Shown piece by piece: positions 30,520 to 39,540 of a stretch of DNA of 64,000 bases; position 1 is the first letter of the stretch, and every line of letters starts with the position of its first letter. The stretch covers positions 1-64,000 of the forward strand of contig NZ_JAMBNO010000017.1 of the NCBI RefSeq assembly GCF_023715105.1. Direction: 5' to 3'. Under the pieces are notes generated by a model that was not told the origin of the DNA, did not search any database, and was given only the letters and a program-made list of their open reading frames with translations. The position numbers and the translations under genes were made by a program. Origin of the DNA: Hydrogenophaga intermedia. Lineage in GTDB: Bacteria; Pseudomonadota; Gammaproteobacteria; Burkholderiales; Burkholderiaceae_C.

Positions 30520-30593
30520 GCGGGTGTAGTTCAATGGTAGAACGGCAGCTTCCCAAGCTTCATACGAGGGTTCGATTCCCTTCACCCGCTCCA
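30520..30593 (+). tRNA. glyU: tRNA-Gly, anticodon CCC; integration site of the island
   Basis: Acceptor stem GCGGGTG/CACCCGC, D-arm GTTC-loop-GAAC, anticodon loop TTCCCAA (anticodon CCC), T-arm AGGGTTCGATTCCCT, discriminator T and encoded CCA at 30591-30593. One C-T mismatch lies in the anticodon stem (GCAGC/GCTTC). The last 19 bases (30575-30593) are duplicated at 39522-39540. Integration therefore left the tRNA intact and displaced its downstream terminator (39563-39593) by about 8.9 kb. Confidence 0.95.
30575..30593. repeat. attL: 19-bp core at tRNA 3' end
   Basis: ATTCCCTTCACCCGCTCCA is identical to 39522-39540. It marks the left boundary of the integrated island. Use of the 3' half of a tRNA gene as attachment site is typical of P4-type tyrosine integrases. 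Confidence 0.92.
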
Positions 30594-31546: not shown

Positions 31547-31744
31547 TCACCGCGCCAGCGCTTCAGCCTTCGCCGCCAGGTCCACCTGACCAGCAGCGCG
31601 AAGCGCAGCCGCCGCCAGATGCAGGCAGTTGTCCCTGCGCTCGTTGCGGCCGTCAGCACCCACCGCAGGCCCCACCAGGCGTTCCACGCAGTCGTTCCAG
31701 CTGGCGCGGACTTCCTCGCGCTCACGCTCGCGGGGTGTGGTCAC
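31547..31744 (-). CDS. Small protein ending the terS operon, unknown
   Basis: 65 residues from a GTG at 31744 that overlaps the stop of the GpU-like gene (GTGA). The N-terminus is strongly charged (TTPREREREEVRASW). The C-terminal helix [22 protein letters not shown] resembles segments of the two other tiny proteins of this operon (32664-32894 and 33549-33776), so they may be related. Function unknown. Confidence 0.6.
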   Translation of the reverse strand: MTTPREREREEVRASWNDCVERLVGPAVGADGRNERRDNCLHLAAAALRAAGQVDLAAKAEALAR

Positions 31745-32667
31745 TGGAACGAACGCAAGTTGTCGTCGGCCTGGCCGCGCAGCCTGGTGGCGCCCACTGC
31801 CAGACGGTTCACGTCGATCTGAGCCGCGCGAACGGTGGCGACGGACCCCACGGCCTCACCGGCGGCCGTCATCGCGTTCAGGGTGTCCTGGATGACGCCA
31901 GACACGCGGCTGCCGGCCTGCGCTGCGCTGCCAGTGGTCAGCACGATGCCGCCCAGCACGGCCTGCGCGTCCGCCAGGCTGCTGATGTTGCCCAGGCGCT
32001 TCGCGGTCTGGCCGGCCACCGTGGCGGTGGTCTGCAGCGAACGCGCCAGGCCCATGCCCTGGTTCACCGACTGGATGACTGCCGCCAGGGGCGTGGCCAC
32101 GCTGCCGGCGATGGCGTCGATGGCCGCCAGCGATGCCGCCAGGCGGCTGAGTGAAGCTGTCCCCAGGGCACCGGTGGCGGTGACGATCTGCGCGGCGGGA
32201 ACGACAGCTGCAGCAGCGGCGCGGTTGCCTGCAGCGATCTGCGGGCCGGCTTGGCCACCACCGGGCGACACGCCAACATCGCCCCGATCGTTGTAGCGCG
32301 ACAGCTGCAGGGTGAATTCCTGGCGCAGCGGCGTGCCAGCGGCGGCGAATGTGGACTGGCGTTCCGACACCGACACGATGACCCATTGGCCCATCACGTC
32401 GCCGCGTCCGCTCACCAGCTGGTGCGGCTTGCCCTGCTCTGCCAGGGCTCGCAGGGCGTCAATCTGGCCCACGCCACCCCAGTATTCGGGGAACACCACG
32501 CCTTCCAGTGTGATGGTGTCCGCACCAGGACCCGTGAACTGCAGTTCCGGCAGCCCTTCGAAAATGTCCTGGCTGGGCCAGCGGTATTCGGTCTGGCGAT
32601 TCAGGCCCTGGTAAGCGGCGGTGTTCAGGCCGAACTGATACGGCCCCAGCTGCAGCATCACGTTCAT
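31741..32667 (-). CDS. P2 GpU-like phage tail protein with long Ala-rich C-terminal extension
   Basis: 308 residues. Residues 1 to about 130 match the P2 tail completion protein GpU in pattern: MLQLGPYQFGLNTAAYQGL, NRQTEYRWPSQ, QFTGPGADTITLEGVVFPE, and FTLQLSRYND at the domain end. P2 U is about 160 residues, so the remaining 170 residues are an extension, rich in Ala, Val and Gly and predicted helical. It overlaps genes on both sides by four bases. A tail protein in an element without other tail genes suggests modification of the helper's tail or head-tail joining, which is inference. Confidence 0.72.
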   Translation of the reverse strand: MNVMLQLGPYQFGLNTAAYQGLNRQTEYRWPSQDIFEGLPELQFTGPGADTITLEGVVFPEYWGGVGQIDALRALAEQGKPHQLVSGRGDVMGQWVIVSVSERQSTFAAAGTPLRQEFTLQLSRYNDRGDVGVSPGGGQAGPQIAAGNRAAAAAVVPAAQIVTATGALGTASLSRLAASLAAIDAIAGSVATPLAAVIQSVNQGMGLARSLQTTATVAGQTAKRLGNISSLADAQAVLGGIVLTTGSAAQAGSRVSGVIQDTLNAMTAAGEAVGSVATVRAAQIDVNRLAVGATRLRGQADDNLRSFQ

Positions 32668-34163: not shown

Positions 34164-34496
34164 TCACCAGTTGCGAACCCAGCTCTGGCGCGCGGCCGGC
34201 GCAGGCGCGCATGCCTGGCGGACCTTCGCGCCGACATGGCGCACGGCGCGGCGCAGCTGGGTTTCGGTAAGTTCCGGCCAGCGGCGCAGCAGCTGGTTGC
34301 GGGTGTCTTCGTCGTTGTGAACCCAGCCCCGGCCGTCCAGCTGGACGATGGCGCGCACATCACCTTCGCTGCCGGCGTGGCGCTGGTACACGGTGCAGCT
34401 TTCGATACAGGCCACCAGGTCGGCCGGCAGCGCGCTGGCATCAGCCGGCGGGTTGCCACCAGGCTGCGGGCGGGGCTTGAAGCGAAGGCCCAGCAT
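34164..34496 (-). CDS. Island protein of unknown function, 110 aa
   Basis: 110 residues, soluble, starting 1 base after the capsid-like gene's stop codon. The central part GDVRAIVQLDGRGWVHNDED and RRWPELTETQLRRAVRHVGAKVRQA suggests a small alpha/beta domain and a helical tail. No family recognised. The position directly after a capsid gene would suit a head-associated or decoration protein, but there is no sequence evidence for that. Confidence 0.5.
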   Translation of the reverse strand: MLGLRFKPRPQPGGNPPADASALPADLVACIESCTVYQRHAGSEGDVRAIVQLDGRGWVHNDEDTRNQLLRRWPELTETQLRRAVRHVGAKVRQACAPAPAARQSWVRNW

Positions 34497-34497
34497 G

Positions 34498-35427
34498 TCA
34501 GGCGCTCACGGTCCAGAACTTCGCATCACCGCTGGGCAGCAGGGCCACCAGGTCGGACCAGATGGTCACCACCAGGTCGCCGGCAGCATTGCGGCGCTCG
34601 ACGCTCACGCGCAGGCTGTCATGCACGGCCACGGCGCTGCGCGTGAACGCGCCCACGACGGTGGCGGCATTCACGGGCGTCAACTCAGCCAGCACACCGG
34701 ACACGCGCAGGGTGCCATCGTCGCCAACAGCGGCACCAGCTGCGGCAGTGCCGCAGAGCGCCTTCAGTTCGGTGAACTCGACACCTGAAGCGCTCGCGCT
34801 GGCCAGGCTGAAGGCCGGCGGCGTTGCGGCCGCAATGGCCGTCAGCAGGCAGTGGTCAGCGGCGCGTGCCAGGCCCAGCCCGATGGCTTCCATCAACTCG
34901 ACAAGCAGCACGTCCATGCCGTGTTCGGAAATGTCGCGTCGCGTCAGGCTGAACCTGGTCGCGTAGCTCGGGCCGGTGAACTCCACATCCTGGCGCGACA
35001 CGGGCGGGGCCACTTCGGGCACATCGTCACCATCGGCAACCGGCAGGATTTGCGCAGCTTCCACCAGGGACCAGCGGCGAGGCCGGTTCACCATGGCAAT
35101 GTCGCCGGTGCCACCCACAGGCACGGCCTCGGGGCTTTCTTCCACCACCAGGATGGATGCGCCGGCCTGCGCCACACGCGATTTGCGCAGGATCGTGGCC
35201 GACATAGGCACCAGCTGGCCAGCCGGGTGCTGGACAACCTCCAGCGCACGAAACTGTTTCTGCGCAGGTGGCAGCTGCAGGGCGCGCAGGCTCAGGGTTC
35301 CGGCGGTCGCGGCGGTCTTCTTCAGAACGTGGCGGACTTCGCCGCTCTCGGTCAGGCCGTGGTGGCTGAAGCCCAGTTCGCGCTGGCCGGCTTCGATGAT
35401 GCTGCGAAGTTGTTCAAGGTGTTCCAT
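34498..35427 (-). CDS. HK97-like major capsid protein (probable)
   Basis: 309 residues from the ATG at 35427. The N-terminal helix MEHLEQLRSIIEAGQ is followed by a segment with VPMSATILRKSRVAQAG. Then comes YATRFSLTRRDISEHGMDVLLVELMEAIGLGLARAADHCLLTAI, whose S/T-R-R...helix...ADxxLL pattern matches the spine helix region of HK97-fold capsid proteins. The C-terminal VHDSLRVSVERRN and SDLVALLPSGDAKFW match the capsid end. No protease or portal is encoded nearby. If correct, the island forms its own capsid, as in capsid-forming PICIs. The assignment is by pattern, not alignment. Confidence 0.55.
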   Translation of the reverse strand: MEHLEQLRSIIEAGQRELGFSHHGLTESGEVRHVLKKTAATAGTLSLRALQLPPAQKQFRALEVVQHPAGQLVPMSATILRKSRVAQAGASILVVEESPEAVPVGGTGDIAMVNRPRRWSLVEAAQILPVADGDDVPEVAPPVSRQDVEFTGPSYATRFSLTRRDISEHGMDVLLVELMEAIGLGLARAADHCLLTAIAAATPPAFSLASASASGVEFTELKALCGTAAAGAAVGDDGTLRVSGVLAELTPVNAATVVGAFTRSAVAVHDSLRVSVERRNAAGDLVVTIWSDLVALLPSGDAKFWTVSA

Positions 35428-35704
35428 GGGGTGTTCGGTTGGTTGTTGTTGCGGGTTTTGCAAAGTCTCTGTCGTTCTCTTTGCTGGTTCCTCTTTCGGG
35501 ATTTCACTTACTGTGCGCGGCCTGCGCGGCGATTTCTTCCTGCGGTTTTTCCGTGAGGGCGAAACACGAAGCGCGCTTTTTGGGCAGCCAGATGTGGACC
35601 CTTGCGCAGCCAATGCCCGCGCAGGGGACGGCCTACAGCAAGGACCCGGACCAATTCGCAGGGGTGCCCCACCCTGGTGCAGCCACCAGGCGCGAGAGGG
35701 TCGG

Positions 35705-35899
35705 CGTAACCACGTCACCACCTGTACCCACCGATTCCACGATTCCAAAAGTCTCCCCAAACACACCACAGCCACAGATTTCCAAAGTTATGTTCTTGGT
35801 GGTTACGGTGGGTACGGTGGTTACGGGGCTGTTTTTCATAGGGAAGGTGCCGTCATCACCTAGGCTTGTGCGGTGGTTACGCATGGCAAGGTGGTGACG
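35705..35899. other. Iteron array next to vapE, probable replication origin of the island
   Basis: Consensus GTGGTTACG. Direct copies: 35799-35807, 35808-35816 (GTGGGTACG), 35817-35825, 35873-35881 and 35891-35899 (GTGGTGACG); the first three are tandem. Inverted copies: 35705-35713 (CGTAACCAC), 35713-35721 (CGTCACCAC) and 35723-35731 (TGTACCCAC). The two clusters face each other across a comparatively AT-rich 67 bases (35732-35798). This layout beside a helicase gene is that of iteron-controlled origins in satellites and plasmids. The rest of 35428-35704 holds no gene I can support. Confidence 0.65.
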
Positions 35900-35900
35900 A

Positions 35901-37310
35901 TCAGAAGGGGCGGTCTTCATCCGGTGAAGCTCCTTCCTTCTCCCACACCCACCTGGGAGGGCCACTGATACGCCGCTGCACACGGCGGTATCCCAGCAAG
36001 CGCAGGGCACTGGCGGCGCGCATCTGTGCGGCCTTGTCCTGGCGGCCAATCTCCACGCCCAGGGCTTCCAGCACCGAGGAAACCTCGACCTGATGGCGGC
36101 CCAGGCAGTGGTCCGCGATGCGGCTTTCCCAGGCGTCAACCTCTCGCCTCTGCTCTGCCTGGTGGCGCGCAGCATCTGCGGGCACTTCCCACCAGGTCGC
36201 GCCAGCGTTGAACCTGGCCACAGCTTCAGCGAACAGTTGGCTGCGGTGTTCGCGCAGCCACGCCAGATCAATGGCGGTGGCGGTCACCGGCCAGAACCGG
36301 CGCGCGCCAGTGGCATCGCGCAGGTAGGCCGTTTCGTTCGTGCTGCCTGCGAAGATGACGCGGCGCGGCATGTCCACAGCCCTGCGGGTGTACGGCAGCC
36401 TGCAGCGGTCCTTCTGGCTGGTCAGCAGCTGCTTGATGCGGGTCACGTCGCTGCGCCTGAATGCGTCCAGCTCGGCCACTTCAATCAGCCACTTCGACTG
36501 CAGCACGATGAAAAAATCTTTGGTGTCCAGGCTCTCGGTCAGTTCAGCGAAGTAAGGCCCGCCGATCACCGACAGCATGGTGGACTTGTTGCTGCCCTGC
36601 GCCCCTTCGAACACCGGCATGCAGTCGGCCTTGCAGCCAGGTCGCAGGGCGCGCGCCACCATGGACAGAAGGAAGTTGCGCCCCACGGCCTGGTGGTAGT
36701 CATCATCAGGCGCGCCGATCACACGGGGCAGCCAGCCGTCCAGGCGCTTCACGCGATCCCAGCGCAGCGACCGCAGCCACTCCACCAGTTCGTCCCGGAC
36801 GTTCTCTTGCGCGATGGCCAGAACAGCCTTTTCCACCAGGTCGTCGGAGAACTTCGCCAAGCCGTGTTCGCCCTGCAGGACGGCCGCCAGGCGTAGGCGG
36901 TCGGAGTCCACCCAGGGGCGCGGCTGTTCGCCGTCCCAGGTGGTCCGCACGTCCTGGTGGAATTGGTCGTACCAGAACCGCCCAGCGAAGCGCGGATGCT
37001 GCGTGAGCACCGCGATGTGGTTGGACAGGTTCGGGATCACGTCGCGCCGCGCGGTCAGGGTCAGACTGACCCCAGCCGCCGCCATGGCCCCCACCGCGTG
37101 CTCGGGGATGGTGATCCCCCAATCCGTGGCACCACCAGGCGCAGGCTGTTCCGCTTGACGGGCTGGCGTAGGGGCTGGGGGCTTCGCCGCTTGCTGGGCC
37201 GGCGCAGGGGCCACCGCCACAGGCGACGGGCTGGGAAGCTCCTGGCGCTGGCGTGCGGCGTTCCTGGCCGCTTCGTCCATGGCCCACTGCATTGCTTGGC
37301 TGGGGGTCAT
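35901..37310 (-). CDS. VapE-family helicase/ATPase (satellite replication protein)
   Basis: 469 residues. The first 70 are a Pro/Ala-rich linker. The C-terminal two-thirds is the virulence-associated E (VapE) P-loop domain: Walker A FEGAQGSNKST near residue 236, Walker B KWLIEVAELDAF near 277, and the sensor region VIFAGSTNETAYLRDATGARRFWPV. It belongs to the SF3-like helicases found in satellites and prophages. The primase domain often fused upstream is absent or reduced. It begins at TGATG with the preceding gene. The iteron array lies immediately downstream, supporting a role in island replication. Confidence 0.82.
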   Translation of the reverse strand: MTPSQAMQWAMDEAARNAARQRQELPSPSPVAVAPAPAQQAAKPPAPTPARQAEQPAPGGATDWGITIPEHAVGAMAAAGVSLTLTARRDVIPNLSNHIAVLTQHPRFAGRFWYDQFHQDVRTTWDGEQPRPWVDSDRLRLAAVLQGEHGLAKFSDDLVEKAVLAIAQENVRDELVEWLRSLRWDRVKRLDGWLPRVIGAPDDDYHQAVGRNFLLSMVARALRPGCKADCMPVFEGAQGSNKSTMLSVIGGPYFAELTESLDTKDFFIVLQSKWLIEVAELDAFRRSDVTRIKQLLTSQKDRCRLPYTRRAVDMPRRVIFAGSTNETAYLRDATGARRFWPVTATAIDLAWLREHRSQLFAEAVARFNAGATWWEVPADAARHQAEQRREVDAWESRIADHCLGRHQVEVSSVLEALGVEIGRQDKAAQMRAASALRLLGYRRVQRRISGPPRWVWEKEGASPDEDRPF

Positions 37311-37645
37311 CAGTGCACCACCTCAGCGCCGCGAAGATGGCGCTTCAGGTCCAGGAACACTTCCTGGCGCACCAGGGCCGGCAGACCATTGCTGGCGCTG
37401 CAGCACATGCCATCGACAGTTTCCAGGATGTGGTCAATTCGAACGCCGCGAATTCGCCCCGTCTCGGCGGTTATGGCCGCCAGCAAGTAAAGCCGGCGCA
37501 TCATGGCCAATTCATCGGACGGGCGGGTATTTACAACCGTGCAATATGCTCGGTTATAATCTGCGAACGCTTTTTGGTCAGGCGTGGTGTGTGTGTGAAA
37601 ACGGTCCCGTCCCACCGGGGCCGTTTTCTTTTGTGGCGAACTCAT
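37310..37645 (-). CDS. Island protein between alpA and vapE, unknown
   Basis: 111 residues from the ATG at 37645, overlapping the alpA-like stop (ATGA); its stop shares one base with the vapE start (TGATG). N-terminus basic (SSPQKKTAPVGRDRFHTHTT). The rest is helical with Cys-containing DHILETVDGMCCSASNG. No family recognised. Codons about 5-27 lie opposite the predicted plus-strand RNA at 37567-37632, so this gene is a candidate antisense target. Confidence 0.6.
   Translation of the reverse strand: MSSPQKKTAPVGRDRFHTHTTPDQKAFADYNRAYCTVVNTRPSDELAMMRRLYLLAAITAETGRIRGVRIDHILETVDGMCCSASNGLPALVRQEVFLDLKRHLRGAEVVH
37530..37560 (+). promoter_or_regulatory. Sigma-70-like promoter for predicted antisense RNA
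   Basis: A perfect TATAAT at 37555-37560 with TTTACA at 37530-37535 (19-base spacer) or TTACAA at 37531-37536 (18-base spacer). It lies on the plus strand inside a minus-strand gene and fires towards the terminator at 37597-37632. Confidence 0.6.
37567..37632 (+). ncRNA. Predicted small antisense RNA (c4/CI-like), about 65 nt
   Basis: Downstream of the promoter at 37530-37560, the strand has a small stem (ACGC/GCGT, 37567-37585), then a 12-bp stem GAAAACGGTCCC/GGGGCCGTTTTC (one wobble pair, 8-base loop) and TTTT at 37629-37632. Promoter-stem-terminator over 65 bases predicts a short RNA. Phage P1/P7 c4 and P4 CI RNAs are small antisense regulators of antirepressor or replication genes in similar elements. 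The tract GGTCAGGCGTGGTGTGTGTG between the stems resembles my recollection of c4-type RNAs, which needs a covariance-model test. Confidence 0.55.
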
Positions 37646-37866
37646 TTCAATTCGACCCCCTGAGCCTGGCGGCGCTGCCAATCCAGCACGTCGCTTTCGC
37701 GCCAGGCCGTCACGCCTGCACTGAGGCGCACCGGCTGGGGAAACGACTTGTCGGCCACCTTCCGCCACACCGTGGCCGGCGCGAACGGAACGTACCCGCC
37801 CTGGATCAACTGACGCAGGCGCAGGTATTTTTCGAGCGATGGAGAGTAAGAGACGTTATTGCGCAT
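37642..37866 (-). CDS. AlpA-like excisionase/regulator (MerR-type HTH)
   Basis: 74 residues from the ATG at 37866, with AGAGGG 10 bases upstream. The upstream open frame to 37938 lies in the promoter region. LIQGGYVPFAPATVWRKVAD-KSFPQPVRLS and TAWRESDVLDWQ are the hallmarks of AlpA-family DNA-binding proteins. In satellites and P4-like elements AlpA/Vis activates or represses integrase and late functions and can act as excisionase. It is first in the leftward replication operon (alpA - 111-aa gene - vapE). Confidence 0.78.
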   Translation of the reverse strand: MRNNVSYSPSLEKYLRLRQLIQGGYVPFAPATVWRKVADKSFPQPVRLSAGVTAWRESDVLDWQRRQAQGVELK

Positions 37867-38022
37867 GATTTGCGGCCCTCTGAGACAACATGCGCTAATT
37901 GTTGATTGGTCTAATTGAGCGGTCAATATTGGACGCAATTAACCGAAATCAACTCAGAATCACGCTAGATAATTAGACGTAACTGGGCCTCATTGGACTA
38001 TTCGACCGTTTGTCGGATAGGC
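37867..38022. promoter_or_regulatory. AT-rich control region between integrase end and alpA-like gene
   Basis: 156 bases, distinctly AT-rich for this window. On the minus strand TTGACC (37926-37921) and AACAAT (37903-37898), 17 bases apart, form a candidate promoter for the alpA operon. CTAATTG occurs at 37895-37901 and 37911-37917, covering the spacer and the -10, and AATTA cores recur at 37937-37941 and 37971-37975. This fits an operator region for the AlpA-like protein or a helper-derived factor. No gene seen. Confidence 0.4.
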
Positions 38023-38050
38023 ACAAAAAACCCGGCTCTGTGGCCGGGTT
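38023..38050 (-). terminator. Rho-independent terminator after integrase gene
   Basis: Read on the minus strand: AACCCGGC, loop CACAGA, GCCGGGTT, then TTTT. It lies 27 bases downstream of the integrase stop and insulates the alpA promoter from integrase transcription. Confidence 0.85.
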
Positions 38051-38076: not shown

Positions 38077-39339
38077 CTATGCGGCGGCCTTTGCCTGCTG
38101 CCGTCCGGCGCAAAACACCGCCCAGTCCGCCATCAGCGCGCGCCGCTTGTCGAACAGGTCACCGCGCCTGTAGGCGGCCTCTGCCGCGTTCCGGATGACG
38201 TGCGCCAGGGCCATTTCGCGCACTTCTGGCGGGTGCTGCGTGCATTCGCTGGTCCAGGTGCTGAAGGTGGACCGGAAGCCATGAACGGTGACCAGCCGGC
38301 CTTTCTCGTCCTTCACGCCCATGCCCTTCAGCAGCGCCAGCATGGCCGCATTCGACAGCGGTCCATCGCCCTTGCCGCCAGGAAACACCCACCGGCTGGT
38401 GCGTTCCTTGTGCAGCGTGCGCAGCAAGTCCACCAGCGGTTCGCTGAGGGGCACGCGGTGGTCCCCAGCGTCCCGAACCTTCATGCGGCCGGCGGGCACC
38501 GTCCACACGGCCGCGTCGAAGTCGATTTCATCCCACTGCGCGCCGATGCTTTCGCCTGTTCGCAGGGCCGACAGAATGGTGACCTCCAGCGCCCTGGCGC
38601 TGATGCTGTCCCGGCTGCGCAGATCTTCCATGAACTTGGGCAACTGCGCGAACGGCAGCGCGGCCTGGCGGCCACCCTTGGGCAGCGGGGGCAGCACCTT
38701 TTCCAGCACTTCGAACGCCGCCGGGTTGTCGCCCTTGCGGTATCCCTTCGCCTTCGCCCAGTCGAACGTCCCGCGCAGCAGCGCGGCCACCCTCTCGGCA
38801 GCTGCCGGCGTCTTCGTCCAGATGGGCTTTAAGACCCGCTCGATGTGATGCACGTCCACGTCCGCCAGCAGCAGGCCGCCGCACACCGGGTCAATGTAGG
38901 TGTCCAGCATGGCCTGCCGTTTCGCCACGCCCTTGGGATCGCGTGCCCACTTCGGGGCCATGGCGTCGATGAACCCAAGCACTGCCTTGCGGACTGTGAA
39001 CAGGCCGGCGCGCTGGGCCTCCAGCTGCGCCCTGGCGGTCAGCTTCGCGGCGCGCGGGTCGATACCGGCCTGCAGCTGCTTGCGGTAGTCGTCTGCGCGT
39101 TCGCGCGCTTCCGCCAGCGTGACGGCGGGGAAGCTTCCCAGGCCGAAATCGCGCCGGTGCTGGACCAGCTTGCCGGCTGCGTTTGGGCGAACCCCCACGG
39201 TTAGCCTGGCCACCCACGAACGGGCACCGCTGGGCGTGACCTGCAAATGAAGGCCGGCGGCACCCCCTACAGGGTGCAGGCCGGGGGTCTTAAGATGTTC
39301 GACGGCTTTCGCGGACAGCTTGCTGGCGGTGCGGGGCAT
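38077..39339 (-). CDS. int: Tyrosine recombinase (P4-type integrase, DUF4102 arm domain)
   Basis: 420 residues. The N-terminal arm-binding domain (about 1-95) includes KTPGLHPVGGAAGLHLQV and the FGLGSFPAVTLAEARERAD motif of P4-type integrases. The catalytic domain has Arg in LSALRTGESIGAQW (about residue 259), HGFRSTFSTW (about 350), a second His in LAHVIRN and the Tyr nucleophile in AAYRRGDLF (about 388). All catalytic residues are present, so it should be active. Its start is about 180 bases from attR, with arm-type repeats between. Confidence 0.93.
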   Translation of the reverse strand: MPRTASKLSAKAVEHLKTPGLHPVGGAAGLHLQVTPSGARSWVARLTVGVRPNAAGKLVQHRRDFGLGSFPAVTLAEARERADDYRKQLQAGIDPRAAKLTARAQLEAQRAGLFTVRKAVLGFIDAMAPKWARDPKGVAKRQAMLDTYIDPVCGGLLLADVDVHHIERVLKPIWTKTPAAAERVAALLRGTFDWAKAKGYRKGDNPAAFEVLEKVLPPLPKGGRQAALPFAQLPKFMEDLRSRDSISARALEVTILSALRTGESIGAQWDEIDFDAAVWTVPAGRMKVRDAGDHRVPLSEPLVDLLRTLHKERTSRWVFPGGKGDGPLSNAAMLALLKGMGVKDEKGRLVTVHGFRSTFSTWTSECTQHPPEVREMALAHVIRNAAEAAYRRGDLFDKRRALMADWAVFCAGRQQAKAAA

Positions 39340-39521: not shown

Positions 39522-39540
39522 ATTCCCTTCACCCGCTCCA
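39522..39540. repeat. attR: 19-bp duplicate of tRNA-Gly 3' end
   Basis: Identical to 30575-30593. The upstream GGTTCCGA versus GGTTCG in the tRNA shows that identity is lost beyond the core. The chromosomal sequence after it contains the terminator expected downstream of the tRNA. Confidence 0.92.

Follow-up and report, generated by a model that had tools for sequence, protein, structure and literature searches.

A probable replication origin beside the vapE helicase gene of a PICI-type phage satellite in Hydrogenophaga intermedia

What is the role of a compact cluster of facing 9-bp repeats (positions 35705-35899) that separates the gene for a VapE-type helicase from that for a capsid-like protein in a genomic island of Hydrogenophaga intermedia? 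To answer this, we analysed the whole 64-kb stretch of DNA that contains the cluster (henceforth the window, part of a 4.65-Mb draft genome) together with vapE genes from other phages, plasmids and satellites. A preliminary description had called the cluster a likely replication origin, and that reading finds support in the island context, in a motif scan blind to protein content and in a survey of vapE 3′ ends. Judging from sequence, we consider it very probable that an 8.95-kb phage satellite of the PICI type starts its replication at this cluster, with VapE as the initiator helicase.

The island, its repeats and its helicase

The island measures 8,947 bp and is bounded by a 19-nt direct repeat (19/19 identical), one copy of which forms the 3′ end of a tRNA-Gly gene (30575-30593 within 30520-30593) and the other of which lies 8,947 bp away at 39522-39540. 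Its genes are all on the minus strand and run in the order tyrosine integrase (38077-39339), AlpA-like regulator (37642-37866; Phage_AlpA at 1.5e-6 when scanned from a longer start at 37938), a 111-aa protein that found no match in a family search (37310-37645), the 469-aa VapE with its VapE-type ATPase (35901-37310), the repeats, a capsid-like protein whose match to Pfam Phage_capsid_4 falls slightly under the cut-off (34498-35427), a 110-aa protein (34164-34496) and a P2 GpU-like tail protein (31741-32667). A tail gene and a capsid-like gene are thus both carried; no full structural gene set was seen among the island ORFs scanned. The island may remodel or interfere with the particles of a helper phage.

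In its sequence the island resembles a Gram-negative PICI: it has its own integrase with a specific attachment site (the 19-nt repeat at tRNA-Gly), a unidirectional int, alpA and rep order with the alpA-type regulator of Gram-negative elements (as in an Escherichia coli island beside fis, L246), and the sequence anatomy of an origin 3′ of rep, with two iteron sets around an AT-rich region. The exact island was met once, and VapE relatives reached at most 57% identity in what was searched. No close relative of the whole island was found among phages (by DNA), in genome samples of the genus, family, order and phylum, or in genome and viral contigs (by single protein); the phage DNA search returned two records, both matching the tRNA-Gly stretch alone, and the capsid-like protein led to no close island relative in viral contigs and phages. 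Strong terminator-like hairpins lie at 37597-37628 (plus strand, inside the 5′ part of the 111-aa gene) and at 38029-38050 (minus strand, between alpA and the integrase gene).

The cluster itself holds nine copies of GTGGTTACG at no more than two mismatches, five on the plus and four on the minus strand. Specifically, a left triplet on the minus strand (35705-35713, 35713-35721 and 35723-35731, with 0, 1 and 2 mismatches, respectively) faces a right triplet on the plus strand (35799-35825), whose tandem copies start at 35799, 35808 and 35817 with a 9-bp step. Beyond these lie a single inverted copy on the minus strand (35851-35859; 2 mismatches), which has a counterpart in a comparable position in several relatives, and an outer pair on the plus strand (35873-35881 and 35891-35899); all five plus-strand copies have 0 or 1 mismatch. 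The preliminary description had counted eight copies, five direct (three of them tandem) and three inverted: those eight stand, as do the direct and tandem assignments, but the uncounted copy at 35851 raises the total to nine and the inverted copies to four. Its statement that the repeats flank an AT-rich stretch directly 3′ of vapE holds, as the two facing triplets enclose a 67-bp spacer (35732-35798) with 45% GC (compared with 67% in the window) and the last copy, ending at 35899, is one base away from vapE, which begins with its stop codon at 35901 on the minus strand. The GC content of the spacer is within the lowest 1.4% of 67-nt segments of the island and its nearest-neighbour energy is among the 1% least stable, and the spacer is likely to be a DNA-unwinding element.

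The clustering is far above chance, as had been claimed. At no more than one mismatch, GTGGTTACG occurs 15 times in the whole window against 7.8 expected, a count reached in 0 of 100 shuffles, and 7 of the 15 matches fall inside the 195 bases of the cluster. Under a relaxed pattern (either T or G allowed at base 6, plus one more mismatch) there are 63 sites in 64 kb, eight of them within 35705-35899, and any other 195-nt span of the window holds at most two. An unbiased 8-mer score of the region 3′ of the window's vapE likewise exceeded 40 out of 40 dinucleotide shuffles (z 9.2). Counts of the GTGGTTACG motif over the island revealed no second iteron cluster.

VapE matches the Pfam VapE-like_dom at residues 179-389 (8.9e-72). 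In an AlphaFold model built from 42 sequences, residues 393-458 form three helices followed by two strands in a block with pLDDT above 90, and from this H-H-H-E-E order we name the C-terminus (about 393-458) a predicted winged helix. The best structural match is PriRep1 with dsDNA (7pds), with a Z-score of 31.5 over 387 residues spanning 74-466 (next entry, 14.3); the sequence match between the two has an E-value of 6e-34, with 21-24% identity in structural alignments. The structure listing names SaPI5 for 7ola and 7om0. No primase domain was matched in VapE, nor any family in its 111-aa neighbour, among those island ORFs that were scanned. Residues 1-83 (37062-37310, minus strand) contain a helix at the N-terminus (3-24) and a Pro/Ala-rich linker modelled with low confidence, in place of which many VapE relatives have a long N-terminal part.

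Repeat arrays at the 3′ ends of other vapE genes

We searched IMG/VR viral contigs with the tandem form of GTGGTTACG, without regard to encoded proteins, and obtained at least 120 stretches. Among the matches listed, six had at least 6 copies within 250 nt, and in all six the copies were of mixed orientation and lay at the 3′ end of a vapE gene whose product is 26-39% identical to the window's VapE (four overlapping the last vapE codons and the rest starting at most 12 nt past the stop). Seven of the matches listed contained vapE at all, and each of these has copies no further than about 40 nt from its stop codon. In L140, the one not among the six, there are three copies, which start 14 nt past the gene. 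A stricter, two-sided pattern retrieved four viral contigs, all with copies 3′ of vapE and all among these six. Five other contigs among the matches listed (L090, L091, L102, L122 and L126) had five copies, all in the same direction, and lacked vapE. Beside most VapE relatives retrieved by protein search an exact GTGGTTACG cluster was absent. Two relatives retrieved in this way (L015 and L029) had mixed 3′ clusters of GTGGTCACG or mainly GCGGTTACG. The trait common to VapE relatives is the architecture, visible by de novo repeat search, and not the exact GTGGTTACG.

To quantify this architecture, we applied a de novo 8-mer test against 40 dinucleotide shuffles to the 483 nt downstream of vapE representatives clustered at 85% identity. 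All 40 shuffles were beaten downstream of 48 of 73 genes, as opposed to 1 of 60 upstream regions and 1 of 77 gene interiors; for protein-retrieved representatives only (i.e., the 73 minus the window and six motif-selected ones) and with z >3 as an added requirement, the counts were 40 of 66, 1 of 54 and 1 of 70. Arrays that passed both the shuffles and z >3 numbered 47, and 47 of 47 were of mixed orientation. Left out before counting were L008-L010 (which repeat the L007 match), circular records present a second time in rotated form, and L003, L019, L021 and L028, which had less than 400 nt downstream. A first-round count of 30 of 40 omits L014, in which a run of N had scored as a repeat (N was masked in later rounds), and L182 and L232, which beat the shuffles, were excluded from geometry and covariation counts as unlike the rest.

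Among the 26 representatives without a near-gene array, six (L201, L189, L225, L158, L013 and L015) have a clear mixed array within about 650 nt according to a by-eye reading of the table, which did not count L179, L164 and L216 (one orientation, low-complexity words) or the marginal L192, L222 and L181. A check suggested at the outset, namely whether repeats are conserved beside vapE in relatives, thus came out in favour of the architecture at many vapE genes; since about 20 of 73 representatives have no clear array within 1.5 kb, an array adjacent to vapE is common yet not universal. Five distant VapE relatives from the same genus were met: two (L004 and L005) are followed by their own arrays, two (L002 and L006) lack one downstream, and the sequence of L003 stops within the gene. 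Arrays were also found in complete phages (Marinobacter PS3 and Acidovorax ACF1) and in the plasmids pGO128 (4.3 kb), pLAO97 and pKNA06. No clear array was present within 483 nt in Pseudomonas phages U5, Haddon and LPPA36 or in Acidovorax phage Aval; in Haddon, an array lies at 382-642 nt, past an annotated gene of about 350 nt. In the 4,340-bp Gluconobacter pGO128 (L153), VapE is the sole gene with a replication-type annotation and is followed by an array of TTTAGCAC.

The arrays also have a recurrent geometry. Facing runs (at least two iterons each with an 8-11 nt step, 30-130 nt apart) were found in 33 of 45 arrays, a count that covers those selected by motif as well, with a median gap of 71 nt; the window has three and three across 67 nt. 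The GC content of the spacer was lower than that of its surroundings in 28 of these 33 sets, equal in one and higher in four (L178, L017, L012 and L005). Using a simple, purpose-written EM to fit family consensus and polarity, we obtained GTGGKNAC as a loose consensus read outward from the spacer. The outward reading fitted better than the inward one in 24 of 33 sets, and in 22 of 27 when the six motif-selected sets were removed (p 0.0015), the remaining five of the 27 being opposite.

Iterons, helicase types and the function of the cluster

If VapE reads the iterons, the two might be expected to vary together, and we compared them with Mantel tests in 39 elements that were not selected by motif (the window included), taking the equivalent of window residues 392-457 as the C-terminal domain. 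Iteron similarity was correlated with C-terminal-domain identity, both raw (Spearman 0.15; 6/1000 permutations) and given the ATPase (partial r 0.18; 0/1000 permutations); its correlation with ATPase identity given the C-terminal domain was -0.11, with 964 of 1000 permutations as high. Iteron sequence thus appears to track, weakly and to a modest degree, the C-terminal domain and not the ATPase, which would make VapE the likely iteron binder. There is a counterexample, in that the C-terminal stretch of pM121-3 is 43% identical to the window's and its iterons are quite different.

A natural exchange points the same way. The capsid-like gene led us to five circular enterobacterial records, namely pM121-3, pSCU-121-2 and pECQ4552_IHU03 from E. 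coli, pR17.0904_9.3k from Salmonella and pW47-1 from Proteus (satellite-like loci L152, L242, L243, L244 and L245; NZ_CP083588, NZ_CP100673, CP054330, NZ_CP104987 and CP077066). Their capsid-like proteins are 85-99% identical, whereas their helicases are of three types with 29-34% identity to each other, and each helicase type has its own iterons (TGTTCCCC, TGACACCT or GGTTACAA): 11 to 13 copies of the matching iteron lie downstream, and 0 or 1 copies of either alternative. A change of helicase is therefore accompanied by a change of iterons, while the capsid-like gene is retained. The helicase of L246 shows 52% identity to the pR17 type, and the two have the same iteron, on opposite strands. 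The exchange is not perfectly clean, because L246 also holds three iterons of the pM121-3 type and the window's own motif occurs 2 to 5 times in the downstream regions of six enterobacterial elements (compared with 8 in the window). No other annotated replication gene was found in the five circles, whose plasmid gene tables are incomplete, and this suggests, short of proof, that helicase and array may be enough for maintenance. The five circles of about 9 kb look like episomal PICI-type satellites; three of them have an annotated tape measure gene and none an annotated integrase. The gene table of pECQ4552_IHU03 lists two near-copies at a distance of about 8.9 kb, and a test for equal halves at an exact offset was negative. 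Across 5,426 genomes, 64 E. coli chromosomes carry structural genes related to those of the circles.

We infer the following course of events. Upon induction, probably driven by AlpA, VapE would be made and would bind the 9-bp iterons through its C-terminal winged helix. The facing triplets would seat one VapE hexamer each, of opposite polarity, with the AT-rich spacer between them. This spacer would melt, and both hexamers would unwind outwards. Host proteins would then prime and extend, a step we assign to the host because no primase domain was detected in VapE.

The repeats can also be explained in other ways. They are located between vapE and the gene that follows in the same direction, and could be operators at which a transcription regulator (AlpA, an activator in EcCICFT073 according to PMC6092414, or an unknown repressor) controls the downstream capsid-like operon. 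We regard this as very unlikely, given that the same 9-mer recurs 3′ of distant vapE genes and that the iteron type is swapped with the helicase next to a capsid-like protein that remains 85-99% identical; a promoter scan, which may miss promoters of GC-rich hosts, also gave a single match near alpA (37898-37926) and none between vapE and the capsid-like gene. Plasmid iterons also have control roles, and the lone inverted copy and the outer pair lie outside the facing triplets, as would suit repeats that bind VapE to control copy number or replication from a true origin elsewhere in the island. That arrangement seems very improbable indeed, as the island has no second cluster, the array contains the very spacer expected of an origin, and the PICI origin described in PMC6092414 is in the same place.

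That the copies cluster by chance, or encode part of a Gly-Gly-Tyr repeat protein, deserves practically no credence. The tandem copies do read GGT GGT TAC in an open plus-strand frame, the five one-orientation contigs without vapE among the matches listed may encode such proteins, and the array of L246 overlaps an annotated plus-strand hypothetical gene. Against this stand the mixed orientation, a significance far beyond shuffles and the codon-position GC, which is flat in two frames: the one in which the capsid-like gene would continue across the left copies (35428-35775; 0.59/0.63/0.58) and the plus-strand frame in which the tandem copies would encode Gly-Gly-Tyr (35428-35863; 0.54/0.63/0.57). 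The values in vapE are 0.70/0.51/0.81, and int and the genes for the capsid-like and GpU-like proteins are also biased. In the frames tested the array does not look coding, so the possibility raised beforehand that the repeats are merely codons is not borne out.

With the cluster read as the origin of the island, one gene and about 200 bp become a candidate minimal replicon for a satellite of a GC-rich host. The broader array pattern is the more interesting part; it rests on one computational survey and suggests that, whether in phages, plasmids or satellites, the helicase gene often allows the origin to be predicted. We consider it an evenly balanced proposition that the VapE helicases found in proteobacterial phages, plasmids and satellites use a common origin design whose code can be read (outward-pointing, approximately GTGGKNAC, often three per side) and in which the winged helix of the tail sets the iteron, and that helicase and origin form an exchangeable cassette setting the compatibility of co-resident satellites. 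Covariation of tail and iteron would open initiator specificity and incompatibility to tail-swap tests.

Relation to known replication systems

L246 has a comparable organisation. It carries genes for an integrase, an HTH regulator, a hypothetical protein, VapE, two small hypotheticals, a 294-aa capsid-like protein, a 104-aa protein, further small proteins and a tape measure, with its iteron array between VapE and the capsid-like gene (overlapping one of the two small hypotheticals). Similarity to the window is detectable in int, alpA, VapE, the capsid-like protein and the 110-aa protein, and the two islands share the int, alpA-like and VapE order and a capsid-like gene after the origin; they differ in location (tRNA-Gly in the window, fis in L246) and their VapEs are about 29% identical. 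The enterobacterial circles have the same order of helicase, origin, capsid-like gene and a gene of 100-odd codons, with a 3′ array in all five, but differ in their TGTTCCCC, TGACACCT or GGTTACAA iterons, the lack of an annotated integrase and their deposition as circular plasmids. The VapE of pM121-3 is 54% identical to the window's over residues 72-469 (local; 48% global), a relative of the 110-aa protein occupies the same place in pM121-3 and L246, and the 294-aa protein of enterobacterial elements is 31-33% identical to the island's capsid-like protein.

More distant parallels exist as well. The Rep-ori system of SaPIs, as represented by PriRep1 in 7pds (which we take to be a SaPI Rep), is alike in helicase fold, C-terminal region included, and unlike in sequence at 21-24% identity. 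P4 has a two-region layout, with crr apart from ori; the island has one cluster and no such second iteron region. According to PMC7581432, SaPI Rep reads downstream iterons with its C-terminal domain, and the isolated C-terminal domain of SCCmec Cch2 binds repeats downstream of its own gene, SCC replication in vivo still having to be shown. Cch2 resembles VapE in having repeats, its putative origin, downstream of the helicase gene, but these are three AAGTG repeats and Cch2 is a helicase of the Primase_Cterm type. An iteron origin beside the replication gene had been presented at the outset as the rule in P4, SaPIs and PICIs; among the vapE genes surveyed an array is common without being universal, and the P4 parallel is loose because PICIs and P4 are argued in PMC6092414 to have evolved independently and because the island has no second cluster. 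A literature search, weak in that it covered papers outside subscription, found neither covariation of iterons with the C-terminal domain across VapE helicases nor such a layout for phages and small plasmids.

The nearest functional precedent is the Gram-negative PICI origin, which, according to PMC6092414, adjoins the 3′ end of rep and has an AT-rich region between its two iteron sets, as in the window. EcCICFT073, which also has a putative capsid gene, and its relatives differ from the island in iteron sequence and in that no primase domain was detected in the window's VapE. The function we propose is nonetheless of an already known kind, because PICI origins are so placed and the rep and ori of EcCICFT073 replicate a plasmid (PMC6092414).
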